This document shows, one piece after another, positions 1 to 7,692 of a stretch of 64,000 bases of DNA. The notes beneath the pieces are model-generated. The model worked only from the letters and a program-made list of their open reading frames with translations, was not told the DNA's origin and did no database searches. This stretch comes from Ianthella basta (lineage: Eukaryota; Porifera; Demospongiae; Verongiida; Ianthellidae). Position 1 is the stretch's first letter. Each line of letters begins with the position of its first letter. The position numbers were made by a program, and so were the translations under genes. The stretch covers positions 3,155,306 through 3,219,305 of the forward strand of contig OZ025887.1 of NCBI GenBank assembly GCA_964019415.1, read 5' to 3'.

Positions 1-1
1 T

Positions 2-415
2 CCTCCAGCAACCATTCCCCCCACCATCATTGGGACCACCGCTCGGCCGGATCTCTTTATTGTGGATGGTAAGCGTGCTACCATGTTGGAACTCACTGTG
101 CCCTGGAACAACCTCACCAGCATCAAGAATGCTAGAGCCCGGAAGCAGGGGAAGACCAACTACCAGCTTTTGGCTTCGGACCTATCTGCCCAGGGTTACC
201 AAGTTCAAGTGCTGACAATTGAGATTGGCTGCCTAGGCCACTACACACACGAGGCCTATACAGCTCTAAGGCTTGCTGCCCCCCAGAGCAAACCCTCTGA
301 CAGACGTAAAGCTCTGACTGACGCGGCTAAAGCAGCCATCTCTGGGAGCTACATTATCTTTTCAGCCTACAAATCACCCTGGAACCTGGGTGCCGGTTGC
401 CCAAATGGAGACTGA
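2..415 (+). pseudogene. 3' tail of a retroelement polyprotein (truncated by window edge)
   Basis: The frame is open from the first bases of the window to a TGA at 413-415, so this is the C-terminal end of a longer protein cut by the window. Visible segments include RPDLFIVDGKRATMLELTVP and, later, QVLTIEIGCLGHYTHEAY. Tails of the form LELTVPW...(K/R)Y..L....G..V....EIG..G are common after the reverse transcriptase in retroelement ORFs of marine invertebrates. No reverse-transcriptase core is inside the window, so the class (LINE, DIRS or other) cannot be fixed. No intron signals are seen. Most likely a mobile-element remnant rather than a host gene. Confidence 0.55.
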
Positions 416-1496
416 GCCCCAATTGTCCGCCAAATATGCCCATCAATCACTGTTTTTTTAATGTTATGTTTAGTGTATTGTTCACATGTAGCACCACCGT
501 CCCCTTACATATCCATGTATTACTTGCCTATATACCCCCCAAATTGTATCCCCATACAGTCCTTTTGTTCCCCAAAGTTATGTTTTCCCCACTTTGTTCC
601 CTCTAGCTTTTTCTCACCCTTACCTTGCCAGGGCATTCCCTAGCAATGCAGTTTCTACTGCTTAGCAACCTGTAACCCTGTGTCCGAGGTTCTACCCCTT
701 TTCTATCACACCATTATCACTGATTGTATACCCCTGTTTTAATAATGATGTGGTTCCCCCCCGCGATGGTTAAACTAAAATCAACAATATTCAGATAAGC
801 AAAGACTCCATGTAGACCGCTCTCACCTTGTGGTCCATCTTCTCCCAAACACTTCGTGCCTTGTTAGTTCCTAGAAAACGGTGATATTTCCGTGAAAACT
901 TAGTATCGCGGGGCCAGATCCTTTGTTCCGGTCTCGCGTAACGCGCAATACCGGTGTCACAGATTATTTTACTCCCCGTATAAAGTATCCCCCGGGTAAC
1001 CGAAGGTTGGTTAAACGACACAGAAATGCTGATAGAAGCTAGTAAAATGCACCCTGCTACAGGATGAGGCTTAACACTACCAGAAGAGACTGTTAGATGA
1101 CGATATAAGCGAACCCTGCACTTCCTTTGCAGTCCTTGCAGAAGACCACATCAATCTTGTTAACTGACGACCGCGGTGAGGTTTCTGTCCTTCTACCATG
1201 GCTGAAATGCTTGTGTACTCCTCTGGGTTCTCGAAAAATGTCAAGAGGGCACTACTGCAACGAACAGAAGTGCTTGAGTAGCACTACGGAGTGCAGTTTC
1301 GCAAACTGGTGGACATCGATGTGCAGGTACATCGACGCTACAGCCTGAGCATGTGAGGAGCATGAAACGGTCTGAATCTTAGCTACTGCTTGTCAAAGCA
1401 GGGTTGATGGGTGTCAGAACAACCCCTCGAAGTGAAACACACCAAAAAGAGTTAAGAAATACTCAGAAATTCAAAGTCGGGGGATAAAGTATCCTA
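416..1496. other. Non-coding stretch, no gene recognised
   Basis: About 1.1 kb without a supportable gene. A 76-codon minus frame at 791-1021 and a 73-codon plus frame at 1127-1348 have no recognisable domain. The sequence is C- and T-rich around 480-640. It may be 3' flank of the retroelement tail or older repeat sequence. Confidence 0.5.
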
Positions 1497-1546
1497 CTTT
1501 ATTTGGTCGGGTATAATTTTCGGACCGCGTCGGACCGGACCGGACC
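1497..1546. repeat. Left target-site duplication plus left TIR of the MULE
   Basis: CTTTATTT at 1497-1504 is followed by the 42-bp TIR 1505-1546. The inner part of the TIR is built from GGACC units (GGACCGGACCGGACC), a motif that also recurs just inside each end and could serve as clustered transposase-binding sites (inference). Confidence 0.85.
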
Positions 1547-2181
1547 GTCCGGTCCGATAGTATAGCGGTATAATTTTCGGACCAGTGACCACACGAGTAA
1601 AGTGAAGGAAAAGCTGGCCACGTGTCTGGTCATAGCGGGAGGCAGGAGGATCGGGATTCATGGCATGATGCACCTGCTTGTGGAAAGGCTACAACGAAGA
1701 TAAGTTGACCTTGCCAATAGTTTTAATATGCTATGTTAATTTGTACCGTCGTAAATTCGTAATCTAGTTCACGATAGCTAGCATTCTATTGCAGGGGTGC
1801 TGGATCCTTTTATCCATCATATAGCTAGCTAAGATAAGTAGACCCTATGCTGTGCTATGTTAGTTTGTACGTAGCTTACCCTAACCCAAAACTACATGTC
1901 ACACTGCACCATGTCACCCCAAGTCTTCAGCATGAGACAGGTACAGTACAATTTGACCACCTTTGCCATTTTCTAGAGTGAGGGAACTTCACCCTGTAGT
2001 TGTCTCTCGGGAATGGGGACATCTTCCCCCGGCTGGAACATTTGAGAAGGTGGTGTCTCATCAGGTTCGGTCTAAAGATGATCTTGTTCCCAGCCCAGCT
2101 CACTTTTTCAATTTCTTATGGTGAGTTCACAGTAAAGCGCATTAGAACAACAAAAACTGTACATAGCATAAGGAAAGAAAA

Positions 2182-2960
2182 TTAGGTCAACAAAGTATGT
2201 ATGATGTACTTTTCATGACACTCCATGCATGTCCATTGCAAGTCCTCAGTCTTGGAAAAGTACTCGTCTGGCACACTGCAACACTTCTGGTGGAACCACT
2301 CACTGCATCCTTCACACTCAATCATCAACCCTTCTTCAACTTCTCTGCATTTACAGTAAACTGGCACATGTGTGATCTTGCCAGCTCGCCATTTTCTTTT
2401 CTGATTTCTTGAGCTGAAGGGCTTCATCACTCCTGTCTCAATGCTTGCAATCAGTTCTTGTCGCAGGCAGCCTTGGTTGTATACTCTGCTGCAGGGATCT
2501 ATATCCATTGCCAGGCTAAGGGCAAATGCAATCGCAAACAATCCACAATCCTTTGCCCCTGTTTGCTTTTGTACATTGACAAACCTGTAGGCGTTGAAAT
2601 ATATTAAATTATTTGAAGGCAAGACTTAGTATAAGCTATTTCAATTAATTCACCAACCTGACTCGAATTGCATCTTCTCCTGTCTTCATGATGGTGGCAA
2701 TCGCCCTTTGAATGCAAGCAGGGACCCTTTGTGACTTGGGTGGAGCAGTGTCAAAAATCTCCACCGCACCATCCTCACTAAATTTGTTTGATAAGCAAAC
2801 CCAGTGCAAACGTGACCGGTCAAACACAATCTGAATGAACCCATCAGGTTCGTCCTCCCATTACCTCCCTGTCTCTGGCATCAGGTGCTGCTTCTACTTC
2901 GTCTTCTGCCAGTGGCCCCTTCCTTCCCCTCTTAGGACTGGCCGAGGGTGACTGGGGTGA
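2182..2960 (-). CDS. Ulp1-like cysteine protease plus PHD finger encoded in the MULE
   Basis: Three minus-strand exons are visible. An acidic/basic linker with SASPKRGRKGPLAEDEVEA lies at about 2960-2870. An exon near 2850-2650 carries the protease His and Asp (LHWVCLSNKF, AVEIFDTAPPKS). The last, about 2600-2182, carries KQTGAKDCGLFAIAFAL, so the His-Asp-Gln-Cys set of C48 (Ulp1/SENP) proteases is present. A PHD finger follows directly, with its Cys4-His-Cys3 ligands spread over VPVYCKCREVEEGLMIECEG and CSEWFHQKC...WTCMEC. It could be the C-terminal part of the transposase polypeptide or a separate transcript. Ulp1-like modules are known passengers in several DNA-transposon families; the PHD addition would suit chromatin targeting (inference). 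No break is seen here. Confidence 0.65.
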
Positions 2961-2998
2961 GTTCTTTTTCTGTATAGTAAAGAAAGTGAAGTTCTACA

Positions 2999-3129
2999 TG
3001 TTGCTTGTATAACATTACAAGAAGTGTATAGTTAGTGTGGAAGATGTTGCTTGTATAACATTACAAGAAGTGTATGGTTAGTGTGGAAGATGTTGCTTGT
3101 ATAACATTACAAGAAGTGTATGGTTAGTG
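2999..3129. repeat. 46-bp tandem repeat, about 2.8 copies, inside the MULE
   Basis: The unit starts TGTTGCTTGTATAACATTAC and repeats at 2999, 3045 and 3091 with one base difference. It sits just downstream of the end of the transposase frame, between the transposase and protease segments. Confidence 0.9.
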
Positions 3130-5017
3130 GAAATTGCCAGGCCTTGAAACTGTTCTCGAAGCAAATATTGCCCAAGGCCAGCTAACCCTCTCTGAACTTC
3201 GTTCTTGAAGTAGCATTGCAGGTGGTACAGGGCAAATGCCAGTGAATCTGGAGACTTTTCCTTTCTCATGACCAATTGCTTGATGAGGGTGTTGAAACCC
3301 TCGCTCTGATTGGTGGTCACCCCACTGTAGCCATTGTAAACACCTAAGGGCTCCAGTATCCACCTCCCACAAGTAGATACAACTTCTGGTGCAAGCTGAC
3401 TGTCAAAGTACTCCACAAATGCTCTGCTCCACCGACCACTCAGTTTCGCATACATTTCTCTGTAGTCATCTTCTGAGGGTGACATTAGCAGCTCCTTGAT
3501 ATCCTGTGTGTATACGTTACACTCTGCAGTGGTTGCCCCATGCTTCTTGAGCCAGTGCCTTGCTGCTGACAGAAGGTGGTTCCAGCATCTCAGGGACAGC
3601 ACTTCTGGTAAGCACTTGTCGATGGCCTTGATAATGTTATCTTCACCATCCGTGACAAGGGGTGTTCCAGCTATCTCTGGGATCTCGGCTGCCATGAAGG
3701 TCATTCAGTATTTCATGAGCAAACTGTGTCCTTTTCTCATGAATGAGAAATGCAGCTGGCATTACTGGTGCTTGCTCAAACAATGTGTGTCGAAACAGAA
3801 TGGGTGACACATAGAAATCTCCCAAGTTGTATGTCATGTCGTAGGAAAGTAGCTGAGGTTGGGCTCCCGGGACACTCAGAACAGCTCTAAGCTCTTGCAA
3901 CATCCATCTATGAGCAAGCACCACTCCTAGCTCAGGAACCAGGAACATGCGGTGAATATAGCCTGTAATATCCTGTGCCAATTCCACCAGATTGAACAGG
4001 TCATCATGTGAATAACGCTGCTCTTGCCGTGTAGCAGATTGCGCATTCTTCACTTGTCTTGGATTTCTTGGTTTTAGGGTGGCCTCATGTGTGATAGTAT
4101 CTCCCTCTCAGCAATCTTCTCTTTGTAATGTAGGGACGAATCTGTTCTGGCTTGTCCAGCTTCTTTGATTACACTAGGAGCAGTCCTAATGTGTGGTCTG
4201 GCCACCTTATTGTTTCCATGAGGAAACAGTGTGCCACTTTCCGGTACAGTCCCTGGAAATGAAAGTATAATTATAAAATCTTTAAGCTTGACCAATACGT
4301 ATGTATGTAATGTATTATATGTATGTATGTATGTAGGTATGTATGTCATTGTATGTATGTATGTATCTTGTATGTGACATCCTTACCTAAATACTGCACA
4401 AGTGTCCCTTGTGTGCCCTTTGGATCGTTGTAAAGGTGGTATGCTACCTTTCTGAACTCCTTGCTCTTCATAGGTGCATTGGTGCCCTCCACAACCAGCA
4501 AGTAGTAGATCTTCTCTACTACTGGATCAGAGCTTGGTAGGAATTTTCGTCCATTCTGGTACCAACGATAGCCATCGGCCTTCCAGTCTCCTGCAAGACC
4601 AACAGACAGTATTAGACTGATTGCTTTTAGTTTTTAAGTAATTGCATTTTTCATTTGTGTACTAGCTATATAACACTGTGTGGTTGCAGTGTGATATTAA
4701 TATGTCATTGACATTTTACTGCTGAAAATATAATTAATACTATATGTTGCATGTATACTTATAACTTTCATAATGAGTTAACGTAGGGAGATACGTACAT
4801 ACGGCTGAAACATAACATAAGTATACACACCTTCTTTCTCTGGGTTGTAGTACAAAAAAGAAGTGTTTCCCTGGGCACGAAATGGTGGCAGAGAAGTAAT
4901 GAAAGGCGCGACCTCGTCTCTAGCTTGCAGGTAGTCGCGAGCAGCAAGCGGAGATATTTCTTGAGATATCTCCAGATAGGGAACGGGTTCAGGCGGCTCA
5001 GCATCTTCCATCATCAA
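3078..5017 (-). pseudogene. MULE-type transposase, frameshifted
   Basis: Read on the minus strand, an N-terminal piece begins MMMEDAEPPEPV near 5017. A segment around 4590-4390 follows (WKADGYRWYQNGRKFLP, SKEFRKVAYHLYNDPKGT), probably a DNA-binding domain. The DDE-type core comes next. The first acidic site is in LLSYDMTYNLGDFYVSP (about 3830-3790), the second in TPLVTDGEDNIIKAIDKCLP, with the family-typical RCWNHLL after it, and a later region TTNQSEGFNTLIKQLV precedes the end. The frame of the first part (to about 3700) and the frame of the second part (from about 3700) differ by one base, with no splice signals there, so a single-base frameshift interrupts the core in this copy. Introns near 4080-4260, 4385 and 4590-4830 are likely. 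Family assignment rests on the motif pattern and the TIR/TSD structure. Confidence 0.7.
4295..4372. repeat. ATGT-type microsatellite
   Basis: Imperfect ATGT/GTAT repeats broken by single substitutions, lying in a presumed intron of the transposase. Confidence 0.85.
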
Positions 5018-5340
5018 ATCGAAGCAAGCGCAGATGAATAGACTGAGTTCCCACCTCCTATTTCACAAGATCGCAGTCGATCACTATGCGGAACCCAGTT
5101 TACACCACCACGAGTGCGAAATTCCGGTTGGAGAGTTTCAATAACATGTAGTTTCACTTCTTCTTGGTATGCATGTGCCTACATGTATTTGATACGCATG
5201 TACAGCTAGCACAAGAACAGCGTTCTTGTTCAAATGGCTGAATGTATATTGATTGACTTGCTCTTGGTCCGAATTTTATACCACCGGTCCGACTATTATA
5301 CCGATTCAGCCATTTTTCGGACCGTCCTATTTAATGTATT

Positions 5341-5390
5341 GGTCCGGTCCGGTCCGACGCGGTCCGAAAATTATACCCGACCCTTTATTT
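5341..5390. repeat. Right TIR plus right target-site duplication of the MULE
   Basis: Bases 5341-5382 are the exact reverse complement of 1505-1546. They are followed by CTTTATTT at 5383-5390, matching the left duplication. The identity of the arms argues for fairly recent insertion. Confidence 0.85.
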
Positions 5391-5508
5391 TACCCGGATG
5401 CATACAAAACTGGGGGGATGGAATAAACCGTGACACCGGAACGGGTCTGGTCTTCCCGTCCCGTCCCGAAAGATTGGTAAAAACTTAGTCCACCCAGCTT
5501 TGGACCCA

Positions 5509-5542
5509 CGTACGGCGAAAGCACCAGTGCTTTCGCCGTACG
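5509..5542. repeat. Perfect 16-bp inverted repeat with 2-base spacer
   Basis: CGTACGGCGAAAGCAC, then CA, then its exact complement. It lies between the MULE and the F-box gene. Flanking bases are only loosely symmetrical (GGTAAAAA on the left, CTGGTAAAAATT on the right). It could be the core of a small foldback element or a hairpin-forming site; no function is evident. Confidence 0.85.
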
Positions 5543-5590
5543 CGGGGCTGGACTGGTAAAAATTGATTCGCAACGCATGTAAGGCGTTAA

Positions 5591-5632: not shown

Positions 5633-5790
5633 TAAAGCAGGCGTGACTTTATATAGAGCGTTTGAGGCTGAAATCGGCGCTGCTATAGCTAATGGTGCTG
5701 GTTAGGAAACAGCATTGAACGTTTCGTGTTTCATTTGACAATGTACTCTTAGTAGAGAGCCAGATTTGTAAGGGCAGCCTACATGGAAAG

Positions 5791-7692
5791 ATGTCACTTC
5801 TTGCGCTCCCCCTTGAGTGCTTGGAAGAAATACTGGGATACCTGTCAACCAGAGATGTCGTTGCTGTTGGATGCTCCTGTAACGCACTACGTAGTGTGAC
5901 GACTTCCTCAAGCAAGCTATGGAGGAGGGTCTGTTTTTCGCGTGTCACTAGTAAACAAGAGGAAGTTGTGTGGGGTTTACTGAAACAGCACGGACATTGG
6001 GCACATTCAGTACGTGTGTCCGCTACACTGCCATTTGGTAAACTAGTGAAGCTACTAGCTCCATGTAAATCCTGTGCATCTTTGTCACTGTGCTTCCAGT
6101 CAGCTCGCAACAGTGGCATCTCACCAGTGCAGTTGAAAGCCCTATGTAGCCAGCTGATATGTTTGAAGTCAGTGGATTTGTGGAACAAGACAAGTAATGC
6201 AACATGTCTAACTGATGTTGTGTCCCTACTGTCTGGTCTTGCTAACCTAGATGAGGCCACCCTTCATCTGAGCAGCGTTCATCCGGTCACCCTGCTGCAG
6301 GCATGGCTCAGCCTCCATTGCCGCCCAAGACATATTTCCCTTCACACTGATTTCAGCCAAGATGATTTGCTGCAACAGATGTTATCTCTGTTGAAACGCC
6401 ACTCCTCTTGTACCATGTCTCTAGTCGAGAGTACTGTCTTTACATGCTGTGTGTCATGTGCTGACCCGCTGCAAACTGACATGTGCAAGCCTGAAATCCA
6501 AGTTACCCTTGGTGCCAGCACAGCCCCCTTCATTGTGATTCCCATCCAGAGTCTGTCCATACCTGTCAGAGGTTCATGTTCACTGGTTCAGACCACTCAC
6601 CGAACTGTAGCCGTGTTTTCTACGGAAGAAGTGCCCAGTGTAGTCCCACGTACATGGAATTTGCATGTGGTTACCCATTTAAACCTGTCTAAGCTTTGTG
6701 TTCTGGAAGCCTCAGACATCTTGTCACTTGTTGCAGAGTCCTGCAAGGAGCTAGTTGCACTGAATGTCAGTGGGAGTGTGGGTGTGTTGATGAACTTGGC
6801 AGGATTGCAAAGCGTTATACAAAATTGCTTGAATTTGAAGTTCATTGATGTTTCAGGGATACCTATTGCCAATGCTGATGTTACCCACTTCTGGGAAATT
6901 CTCTCATCCTCATCACTAACTCATCTTACTGTTGGCAATTGCTCCCTTAGCTCTGCTAAGTCTTTGTCTCTGGGACAAGCTGCAAGACCTCTACAGGATA
7001 ATCCCAATGATGATGCATGGGCTATCTGCAGTAGCCTCACTTCACTGCATGCTTTGGAGTTGCACTGCTGCAATGTTGCTGCTAAAAAGCATGTCTGTTG
7101 GAACTGCTCAACATTCTCTGATAGTCAATTTGCGAAGGTGCAAGTATTCACTCACCTATCCTACCTTGCCTGCTACACATCCACACTCAAGCCCCATTCC
7201 TTGAAACCCATCCTCTCTGAGTGTTGTGCCCTGCAGTGCCTTCGCTTTGAGTACAGATCAATGCAGCTCCAGGCTGGCAGTGGCAGCTTGTACTTGCCTG
7301 GACCATCCCCGGGACTGTATGAGTCTCTTACACAACTCTGCATTGTCAGCACTGTACTTACTCTGTCTGACGACATTTGTGAGGAATTAGGACAGAATGG
7401 AAAGCTGACACACATTTTCTTACTGATTCAAGCAATGTCACTGAAAGCCATTGAGCAACTACTGAGGGGGAACCATAGACTGGCTGCTGTGCAAATGATG
7501 TTCATGTCATTCCTTGGCAAGCATTTCAAGGCATTTGTGCAGGAGCTGTCATCTGACCTTAATGACTACTATGCTGTACAGTGTGGGCGATTCACCATCA
7601 AGGACAACTGTTTACGGCAAATCAACCTGCTTTCTGCAATGACAGCAGATGTTGCCTCAAATCTTGGAACTTTGTGGAAATTAGCCCCTTGA
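5791..7692 (+). CDS. F-box protein with leucine-rich-repeat-like region (intronless)
   Basis: A single 633-codon open frame encodes an F-box at residues about 3-50 (LPLECLEEILGYLSTRDVV, then CSCNALRS and LWRRVCF). This motif binds SKP1 and recruits the protein to SCF ubiquitin ligases. The rest has scattered leucine-rich segments such as LVALNVSGSVG and LNLKFIDVSG, separated by irregular stretches, so a degenerate LRR solenoid for substrate binding is likely. The start is the ATG at 5791, immediately before the F-box; no in-frame extension is needed. Lack of introns in a region where neighbours have up to about 19 exons suggests a retrocopy or a family that lost introns. It resembles FBXL-type proteins broadly, but no specific orthologue is recognised. 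The substrate is unknown. Confidence 0.8.
   Translation: MSLLALPLECLEEILGYLSTRDVVAVGCSCNALRSVTTSSSKLWRRVCFSRVTSKQEEVVWGLLKQHGHWAHSVRVSATLPFGKLVKLLAPCKSCASLSLCFQSARNSGISPVQLKALCSQLICLKSVDLWNKTSNATCLTDVVSLLSGLANLDEATLHLSSVHPVTLLQAWLSLHCRPRHISLHTDFSQDDLLQQMLSLLKRHSSCTMSLVESTVFTCCVSCADPLQTDMCKPEIQVTLGASTAPFIVIPIQSLSIPVRGSCSLVQTTHRTVAVFSTEEVPSVVPRTWNLHVVTHLNLSKLCVLEASDILSLVAESCKELVALNVSGSVGVLMNLAGLQSVIQNCLNLKFIDVSGIPIANADVTHFWEILSSSSLTHLTVGNCSLSSAKSLSLGQAARPLQDNPNDDAWAICSSLTSLHALELHCCNVAAKKHVCWNCSTFSDSQFAKVQVFTHLSYLACYTSTLKPHSLKPILSECCALQCLRFEYRSMQLQAGSGSLYLPGPSPGLYESLTQLCIVSTVLTLSDDICEELGQNGKLTHIFLLIQAMSLKAIEQLLRGNHRLAAVQMMFMSFLGKHFKAFVQELSSDLNDYYAVQCGRFTIKDNCLRQINLLSAMTADVASNLGTLWKLAP

Follow-up and report, generated by a model that had tools for sequence, protein, structure and literature searches.

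Transposases with a protease of the Ulp1 type, in some cases next to a PHD finger, have been known from animals since 2010. The available text of PMC2836005 describes OTU or Ulp1 tails on Ginger1 transposases, once with a PHD finger (Ginger1-9_HM); it suggests a role of these tails in DNA repair, refers to Mutator elements with Ulp1 in hydra and lancelet, and includes the legend of a figure that aligns the Ulp1 and PHD of Ginger1 and Mutator transposases. Among Mutator-like elements (MULEs), the available part of a survey gives a PHD finger for Rehavkus (PMC6446971), and that of a plant study links KIU-carrying Vandals to hypomethylation of related copies (PMC13317346). Here, we describe a MULE family of the sponge Ianthella basta, family A, of which one copy lies at positions 1505-5382 of a window of 64,000 nucleotides (assembly GCA_964019415.1, contig OZ025887.1, positions 3,155,306 to 3,219,305 of the forward strand). 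An earlier note on this window had judged its combination of MULE transposase, Ulp1, and PHD finger unusual, a view overtaken by the 2010 report of Ulp1 and PHD on Ginger1 and Mutator transposases (PMC2836005, as far as its text is available); family A is a further member of this known group. A literature search for the three terms as a phrase returned nothing, and a further search returned that paper only. Less expected, as our results suggest, are a difference between copies in the number of an in-frame 105-bp exon, a possible CG-1-type domain for which the evidence is weak, and hints of an exchange of tails with other elements.

By description rather than by sequence, family A resembles the Mutator (MuDR) elements of hydra and lancelet, animal Mutator transposases with Ulp1 for which the legend names both Ulp1 and PHD, whereas the available text mentions neither a CG-1-like domain nor an exon array (PMC2836005). 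It shares with Ginger1 the position of Ulp1, and in Ginger1-9_HM of PHD, C-terminal to a DDE enzyme, but according to the same text that enzyme has no MULE core and is a Gypsy-type integrase with GPY/F (PMC2836005), and Pfam lists no integrase family for the 992-residue protein of family A. Rehavkus is also MULE-like, with a 9-bp duplication, a PHD finger in the transposase, and a minisatellite; the available part of the survey contains no word beginning with "ulp", hence names no Ulp1, and places the minisatellite before the 3' terminal inverted repeat (TIR), whereas the repeats of family A are in introns (PMC6446971). The plant Kaonashi/KIU and VANC elements are MULEs carrying Ulp1, linked there to release from silencing, but the available text gives them as non-TIR elements with an Ulp1 gene separate from the transposase (PMC13317346); family A has TIRs and one frame across its splice sites. 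RAG1/2 is a DDE recombinase complex with a PHD finger binding histone H3 trimethylated at lysine 4 (H3K4me3), and would be alike in its working at most: in the part of the source available, the finger is on the partner RAG2, is absent from ProtoRAG RAG2L, and also inhibits transposition (PMC11844651).

The element in the window is a MULE bounded by perfect 42-bp TIRs, with the 8-bp target duplication CTTTATTT on both sides, as the earlier note had claimed. All its coding parts are on the minus strand, and its features, in window coordinates, are as follows.

1497..1504, no strand: left target-site duplication CTTTATTT, from direct reading and the empty-site match
1505..1546, plus strand: TIR of 42 bp at the gene's 3' end, 100% complementary to 5341-5382
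2182..2584, minus strand: exon 6, with the Ulp1 Gln/Cys half, the PHD finger, and the stop codon (PHD 34.5 bits, above the Pfam cut-off)
2218..2361, minus strand: PHD finger (Pfam PHD), whose version in the intact copy L012 is nearest to the solved chains PHF2, EBS, Spp1, and PHF8
2658..2861, minus strand: what is left of exon 5, which holds the Ulp1 His and Asp and has lost 184 nt at its start (alignment to L012)
2865..2969, minus strand: small exon of 105 bp in one copy, coding for 35 aa and chimeric, with the beginning of exon 4 joined to the last part of exon 3
2998..3135, minus strand: three direct repeats of 46 bp, belonging to the intron array in which the small exon sits
3128..4252, minus strand: truncated exon 3 with the DDE core, its frame broken and its SWIM-coding end deleted (comparison with relatives)
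4387..4590, minus strand: exon 2, core of the CG-1-like N-terminal domain
4831..5014, minus strand: exon 1 with the start codon
5341..5382, minus strand: TIR of 42 bp at the gene's 5' end, an inverted-repeat match to 1505-1546
5383..5390, no strand: right target-site duplication CTTTATTT, from direct reading

We searched the assembly (209 Mb, 96 contigs) with the two flanks of the element joined over one duplication, a 600-nt query, and found at least 42 matches, a lower bound because 40 of 278 candidates were scored. Two of these are the window's own halves and one is a hit of 42 nt; the remaining 39 cross the junction at query position 300, spanning approximately positions 3-349, and show the empty site. 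The host repeat around the element (window 1205-1504 and 5391-5440) has 39 further copies, nearly all at 94-96% identity. Since the flanks match repeat copies across the insertion point, the element inserted itself into one copy of a high-copy repeat, with a duplication of 8 bp. Of 14 elements with two ends, 13 belonging to family A and one to a sister family, B, 12 are flanked by a perfect target duplication, nine of 8 bp and three of 9 bp, the exceptions being L010, with none, and L022, with one mismatch in 8, whereas none of 182 cross-pairings of left and right flanks matches over 8 bp. TIRs with target duplications of 8-11 bp are characteristic of MULEs.

The D, D, and E of the DDE core lie in SYDMTYN, VTDGED, and NQSEG, the Ulp1 His and Asp in RLHWV and EIFDT, and the Gln and Cys in QTGAKDCG; by motif, we take all of them to be the catalytic residues. 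Core, protease residues, and PHD finger are thus on one strand, as had been noted, and the four protease residues are all there, but the supposedly complete Ulp1 domain is not: about 61 codons ahead of His and Asp in their exon are deleted. Compared with relatives of 4.6-5.4 kb, the window copy is missing its SWIM finger and the front part of Ulp1. Relative to L012, it has lost the second half of exon 3 including SWIM (approximately gene positions 2262-2716 of L012), as well as most of exon 4 together with 184 nt at the start of exon 5 (positions 2963-3389 of L012); in addition, its exon 3 differs in length from that of the relatives at two places, by one base each. In the Pfam analysis of the window's open reading frames, where PHD is above the cut-off, MULE reaches 14.2 bits (cut-off 27.6) and no Ulp1 family is listed, and this copy is fragmented. 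We rejected the idea that it is autonomous, since the deletions and frame breaks preclude a transposase or a whole protease domain: it is a non-autonomous internal deletion derivative.

Two of the relatives, L011 and L012, both with perfect duplications, have an open gene. Gene models built on these two copies, leaving out L010 and L014, have six exons with GT-AG borders that give 992 codons and one stop, in the domain order CG-1-like N-terminus, MULE DDE, SWIM, Ulp1, and PHD. Transposase, Ulp1, and PHD of the intact copies most likely form one spliced gene and one polypeptide, a prediction from sequence in which the proposed link between the three parts would stand, although the window copy cannot make that protein. 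The two elements differ at 3 of 4600 aligned bases and in the number of extra 105-bp exons, three in L011 and none in L012 (repeated exons were counted as exact strings, so that these are lower bounds). This chimeric small exon is in frame and encodes 35 aa; with all its copies read, the frame of L011 remains open over 1097 aa. We read this difference as a probably recent change in exon number.

In the 992-aa protein, PHD scores 28.3 bits in Pfam, above the cut-off. The DDE domain is assigned to MULE through both families: A scores 24.6 bits in the genome scan and 19.7 on the protein (cut-off 27.6), B scores 28.7 bits and passes, and the two families share 61-71% identity in their transposases. 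As for the protease, A has the four residues by motif, and C48 exceeds its cut-off (20.7) in the tail of B (26.1 bits) and in that of an integrase-bearing locus, L031 (24.6 bits), whose related tail also matches a solved Ulp1-like SUMO protease (E 1.5e-4); activity on SUMO is predicted. The PHD finger of B passes its cut-off too. The four solved chains nearest to the finger of L012 are readers of H3K4me3. Between L012 and the older copy L019, which has four stops in the transposase and one in the CG-1-like region, the ratio of nonsynonymous to synonymous substitution rates (dN/dS) is 0.13 for the transposase, 0.12 for the SWIM region, 0.29 for Ulp1 (11 synonymous and 13 nonsynonymous changes), 0.40 for PHD, and 0.71 for the CG-1-like region; against L020, it is 0.42 for Ulp1 and 0.60 for PHD. 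The Ulp1 part therefore shows signs of purifying selection.

The N-terminal domain is best described as CG-1-like and no more, homology with CG-1 being unproven. When the N-terminal pieces are compared with Pfam by themselves, no family but CG-1 is listed, below the cut-off (E 0.0014 for B and 0.041 for A), and these matches cover nearly the whole profile. Direct comparisons with the CG-1 domain of a host CAMTA-like gene, itself at 82.5 bits, are weak: hhalign aligns 30 columns with a probability of 13% (E 0.0021), and the Smith-Waterman score is reached by 124 (A), 26 (B), and 24 (L051) of 5000 shuffles. L051, a degraded relative, keeps DDWKADGYRW and has no CG-1 match. Searched against the PDB set to E 10, the N-terminus found no CG-1 chain, only ribosomal proteins, presumably by chance, and that of B one unrelated chain at E 0.19; an AlphaFold2 model of exon 2 alone (mean predicted local distance difference test score, pLDDT, of 59) was not used. 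In the literature search, none of the matches listed had a title on CG-1 in transposases, and the paper containing both terms concerned plant CAMTA.

A number of observations weigh against this reading of the protein. In family A, MULE, SWIM, and C48 are all below the Pfam cut-offs, the scores on the 992-aa protein being 19.7 for MULE, 19.3 for YopJ acetyltransferase, 16.1 for C48, and 13.5 for SWIM (residues 609-629 of L012, cut-off 19.6). The Ulp1 part alone scores higher with YopJ (23.3 bits) than with C48 (18.5 bits), both below the cut-off; the two are related cysteine-peptidase folds. Pfam does not list CG-1 for the whole protein, and a genome-wide CG-1 scan gave two matches, both in the host CAMTA-like gene and none in MULE copies. 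Of the four residues that we take to form the aromatic cage of PHF2, Tyr, Met, and Trp are kept, and the second Tyr has no counterpart. Selection on PHD rests on few changes (two synonymous and four nonsynonymous between L012 and L019), and the dN/dS of the SWIM region exceeds 1 in close comparisons (1.18 with L014 and 1.63 with L010), which also rest on few changes and scatter.

Copies of the family abound. A search with the DNA of the window element gave at least 137 matching pieces, a lower bound with 40 of 267 candidates scored. The 3878-bp element itself is present in at least three identical copies at different sites, a fourth place (C20:4589830) matching its positions 1-3044 only, and there are further identical pairs of 5324, 3083, and 428 bp. 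Identical copies at different sites imply recent movement, which suggests that family A is a recently active MULE family. Since the 3878-bp derivative has no transposase of its own, it was probably mobilised in trans by the protein of another copy.

We consider it likely that these results are best explained by a recently active MULE family whose intact copies encode one spliced transposase of 992 aa, with the window element as a derivative moved in trans and a tail for which we propose a tethering and deSUMOylating role. This would most likely be a cut-and-paste MULE guided or protected by its fused tail. The CG-1-like domain would probably bind the TIRs, the linker after SWIM would take a variable number of 35-aa exons, and the full-length protein would move the window derivative in trans; PHD could anchor the transposase at active promoters by way of H3K4me3 chromatin, and the Ulp1-type protease could strip SUMO from silencing or repair factors at the donor or target. 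That the tail acts in targeting or counter-silencing is a fair idea, drawn from the predicted domains. Since full-length genes with an open frame, recent copies without a difference, and clean insertion sites occur together in one genome, it becomes possible to test an old question, namely what transposases gain from SUMO-type proteases and PHD fingers.

The large introns and the repeat array between exon 3 and the tail could instead separate two genes on one strand, a transposase ending after SWIM and an Ulp1-PHD gene within the element, for which the separate Ulp1 genes of KIU/VANC elements are a plant precedent (PMC13317346, in its available part). This arrangement appears unlikely, because exons 3-6 join in phase at GT-AG borders with a stop only at the end, the duplicated 105-bp exon preserves the frame in L011, and the tails of L031 and L036 continue an integrase C-terminus in one open frame. 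A slightly less probable alternative still is that tail and fusion ride along and contribute nothing to transposition: copies without the whole tail have moved (the sets of 3878, 3083, and 428 bp), but these also lack the whole transposase and had to use protein made elsewhere, and the dN/dS of Ulp1 given above argues against the lack of function. The earlier note had named copies without the Ulp1-PHD segment, or a host gene as its home, as grounds for doubt, and we encountered neither: the copies without this segment that were compared as protein, L027 and L028, also lack part of the transposase, and the related Ulp1-PHD stretches with recognisable surroundings sat in mobile elements, a check that covers the loci with readable surroundings and leaves several outside.

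The history of the tail seems to involve other elements. At eight loci or more (on C6, C18, C14, C17, C22, C23, and C11, and at C2:6465742), an integrase match lies just upstream of an Ulp1-PHD tail, on the same strand. While the transposases of A and B are similar, their tails are only 32% identical, no closer than that of A to the integrase tail of L031 (36%), and the partial tail of C is nearer to the tail of the integrase locus L047 (42%) than to those of A and B (28-33%). The tail of A groups with that of L031 at 85/89 in one tree; in two further trees, the pair lacks resolution in one and is part of a group of four rows (85/96) in the other. The partial tail of C groups with that of L047 at 79/80.9 in one tree and at 89/88 in a later one. 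The first tail tree was built without L032, L037, L038, L044, and L045, and the later ones added L032 and L045 and omitted MULE_B_L030, L042, and L043, so that L037, L038, and L044 are in no tail tree. Of 20 selected regions, 15 were read, the others being C5:4027500, C20:3920000, C21:5234000, C3:9445500, and C5:8227500.

These data make us lean somewhat, without proof, towards an exchange of tails between MULEs and integrase-bearing elements. It is conceivable, if less probable than the opposite, that a MULE ancestor captured the Ulp1-PHD tail once and that the tail then evolved faster than the transposase, without exchange. Five approximately unbiased tests of the MULE tails as one clade (p of 0.02, 0.064, 0.061, 0.117, and 0.032) do not clearly reject this, the grouping of A with L031 was not stable, and, within A, the nonsynonymous rate between L012 and L019 is 0.030 in Ulp1 against 0.013 in the transposase, i.e., Ulp1 changes about twice as fast, which accounts for part of the gap between the tails of A and B. 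Such an acceleration is not seen within B, where tails (94%) and transposases (93-97%) diverge about equally, and the relations of A to L031 and of C to L047 are those expected from exchange. If tails were exchanged between element classes, unrelated elements would have a common requirement, either to cope with SUMO-dependent silencing or to gain access to promoters. Rather doubtful, in our view, is the bolder proposal that Ulp1-PHD is an exchangeable chromatin cassette, shuffled as exons in this genome between MULEs, which would bind their ends with a CG-1-type domain, and integrase-bearing elements of the Ginger1 or Gypsy type, so that unrelated DDE enzymes would have acquired one and the same module for H3K4me3 tethering and deSUMOylation. 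CG-1-type end binding, if true, would add the CAMTA DNA-binding domain to those sharing ancestry with MULE proteins. Around the integrase-Ulp1 stretch on C22, a search for repeats, inverted or direct, that measure at least 14 nt and start more than 600 nt from each other found none, only scattered 12-mers, and the element there may be of either the Ginger1 or the Gypsy type. This integrase-Ulp1-PHD stretch (L036, L052, and L053, C22:4447400-4455500) lies between pieces resembling non-long-terminal-repeat retroelements, and may be nested in one.

The Ulp1-PHD query had at least 129 matches in the genome (149 of 197 candidates scored). Runs of five, three, and five Ulp1-like matches spaced by about 2 kb are found at C3:3659316-3668032, 3781233-3785861, and 4187391-4196101, and are tandemly multiplied Ulp1-like sequence. 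Elsewhere, Ulp1-PHD stands at the end of a frame listed at 2031 aa, on a contig of 28.8 kb (L041, C29:8800-10400), and positions 3-971 of L043 form one open frame in which, by eye, CCHC knuckles and an aspartic-protease motif run into an Ulp1-like segment. A different MULE (L033, C7:87000-91500), with a frame of 921 aa and also present at C20:3923379 and C21:5237189, shows no similarity to Ulp1 or PHD within the 4.5 kb that were read, as in other MULE-like places. A search of viral contigs for close relatives of the transposase confirmed none, two PHROGs matches (E 0.03-0.07) were not used, and an open frame of 2301 aa at C1:7544704 was rejected because it passes through Ns. In family B (L025, L029, and L030), long minisatellite-like repeats lie between the N-terminal exons and the transposase exon. 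The COX1 gene of the assembly, on contig C96, contains 9 TGA codons in frame and is open when translated with code 4, which would fit a non-bilaterian animal such as a sponge.

Around the window element, a frame open from the left edge of the window (2-415, plus strand) ends in a stop and looks by eye like the end of a retroelement protein. Directly outside the element is an inverted repeat with 20-nt arms, 95% complementary, and a 2-nt loop (5505-5546). A stop-to-stop reading frame of 657 aa, with an F-box-like start by eye, follows at 5719-7692 on the plus strand. The MULE ends about 0.4 kb upstream of the first ATG of this frame, a position that fits promoter targeting, as a single case inside a repeat.

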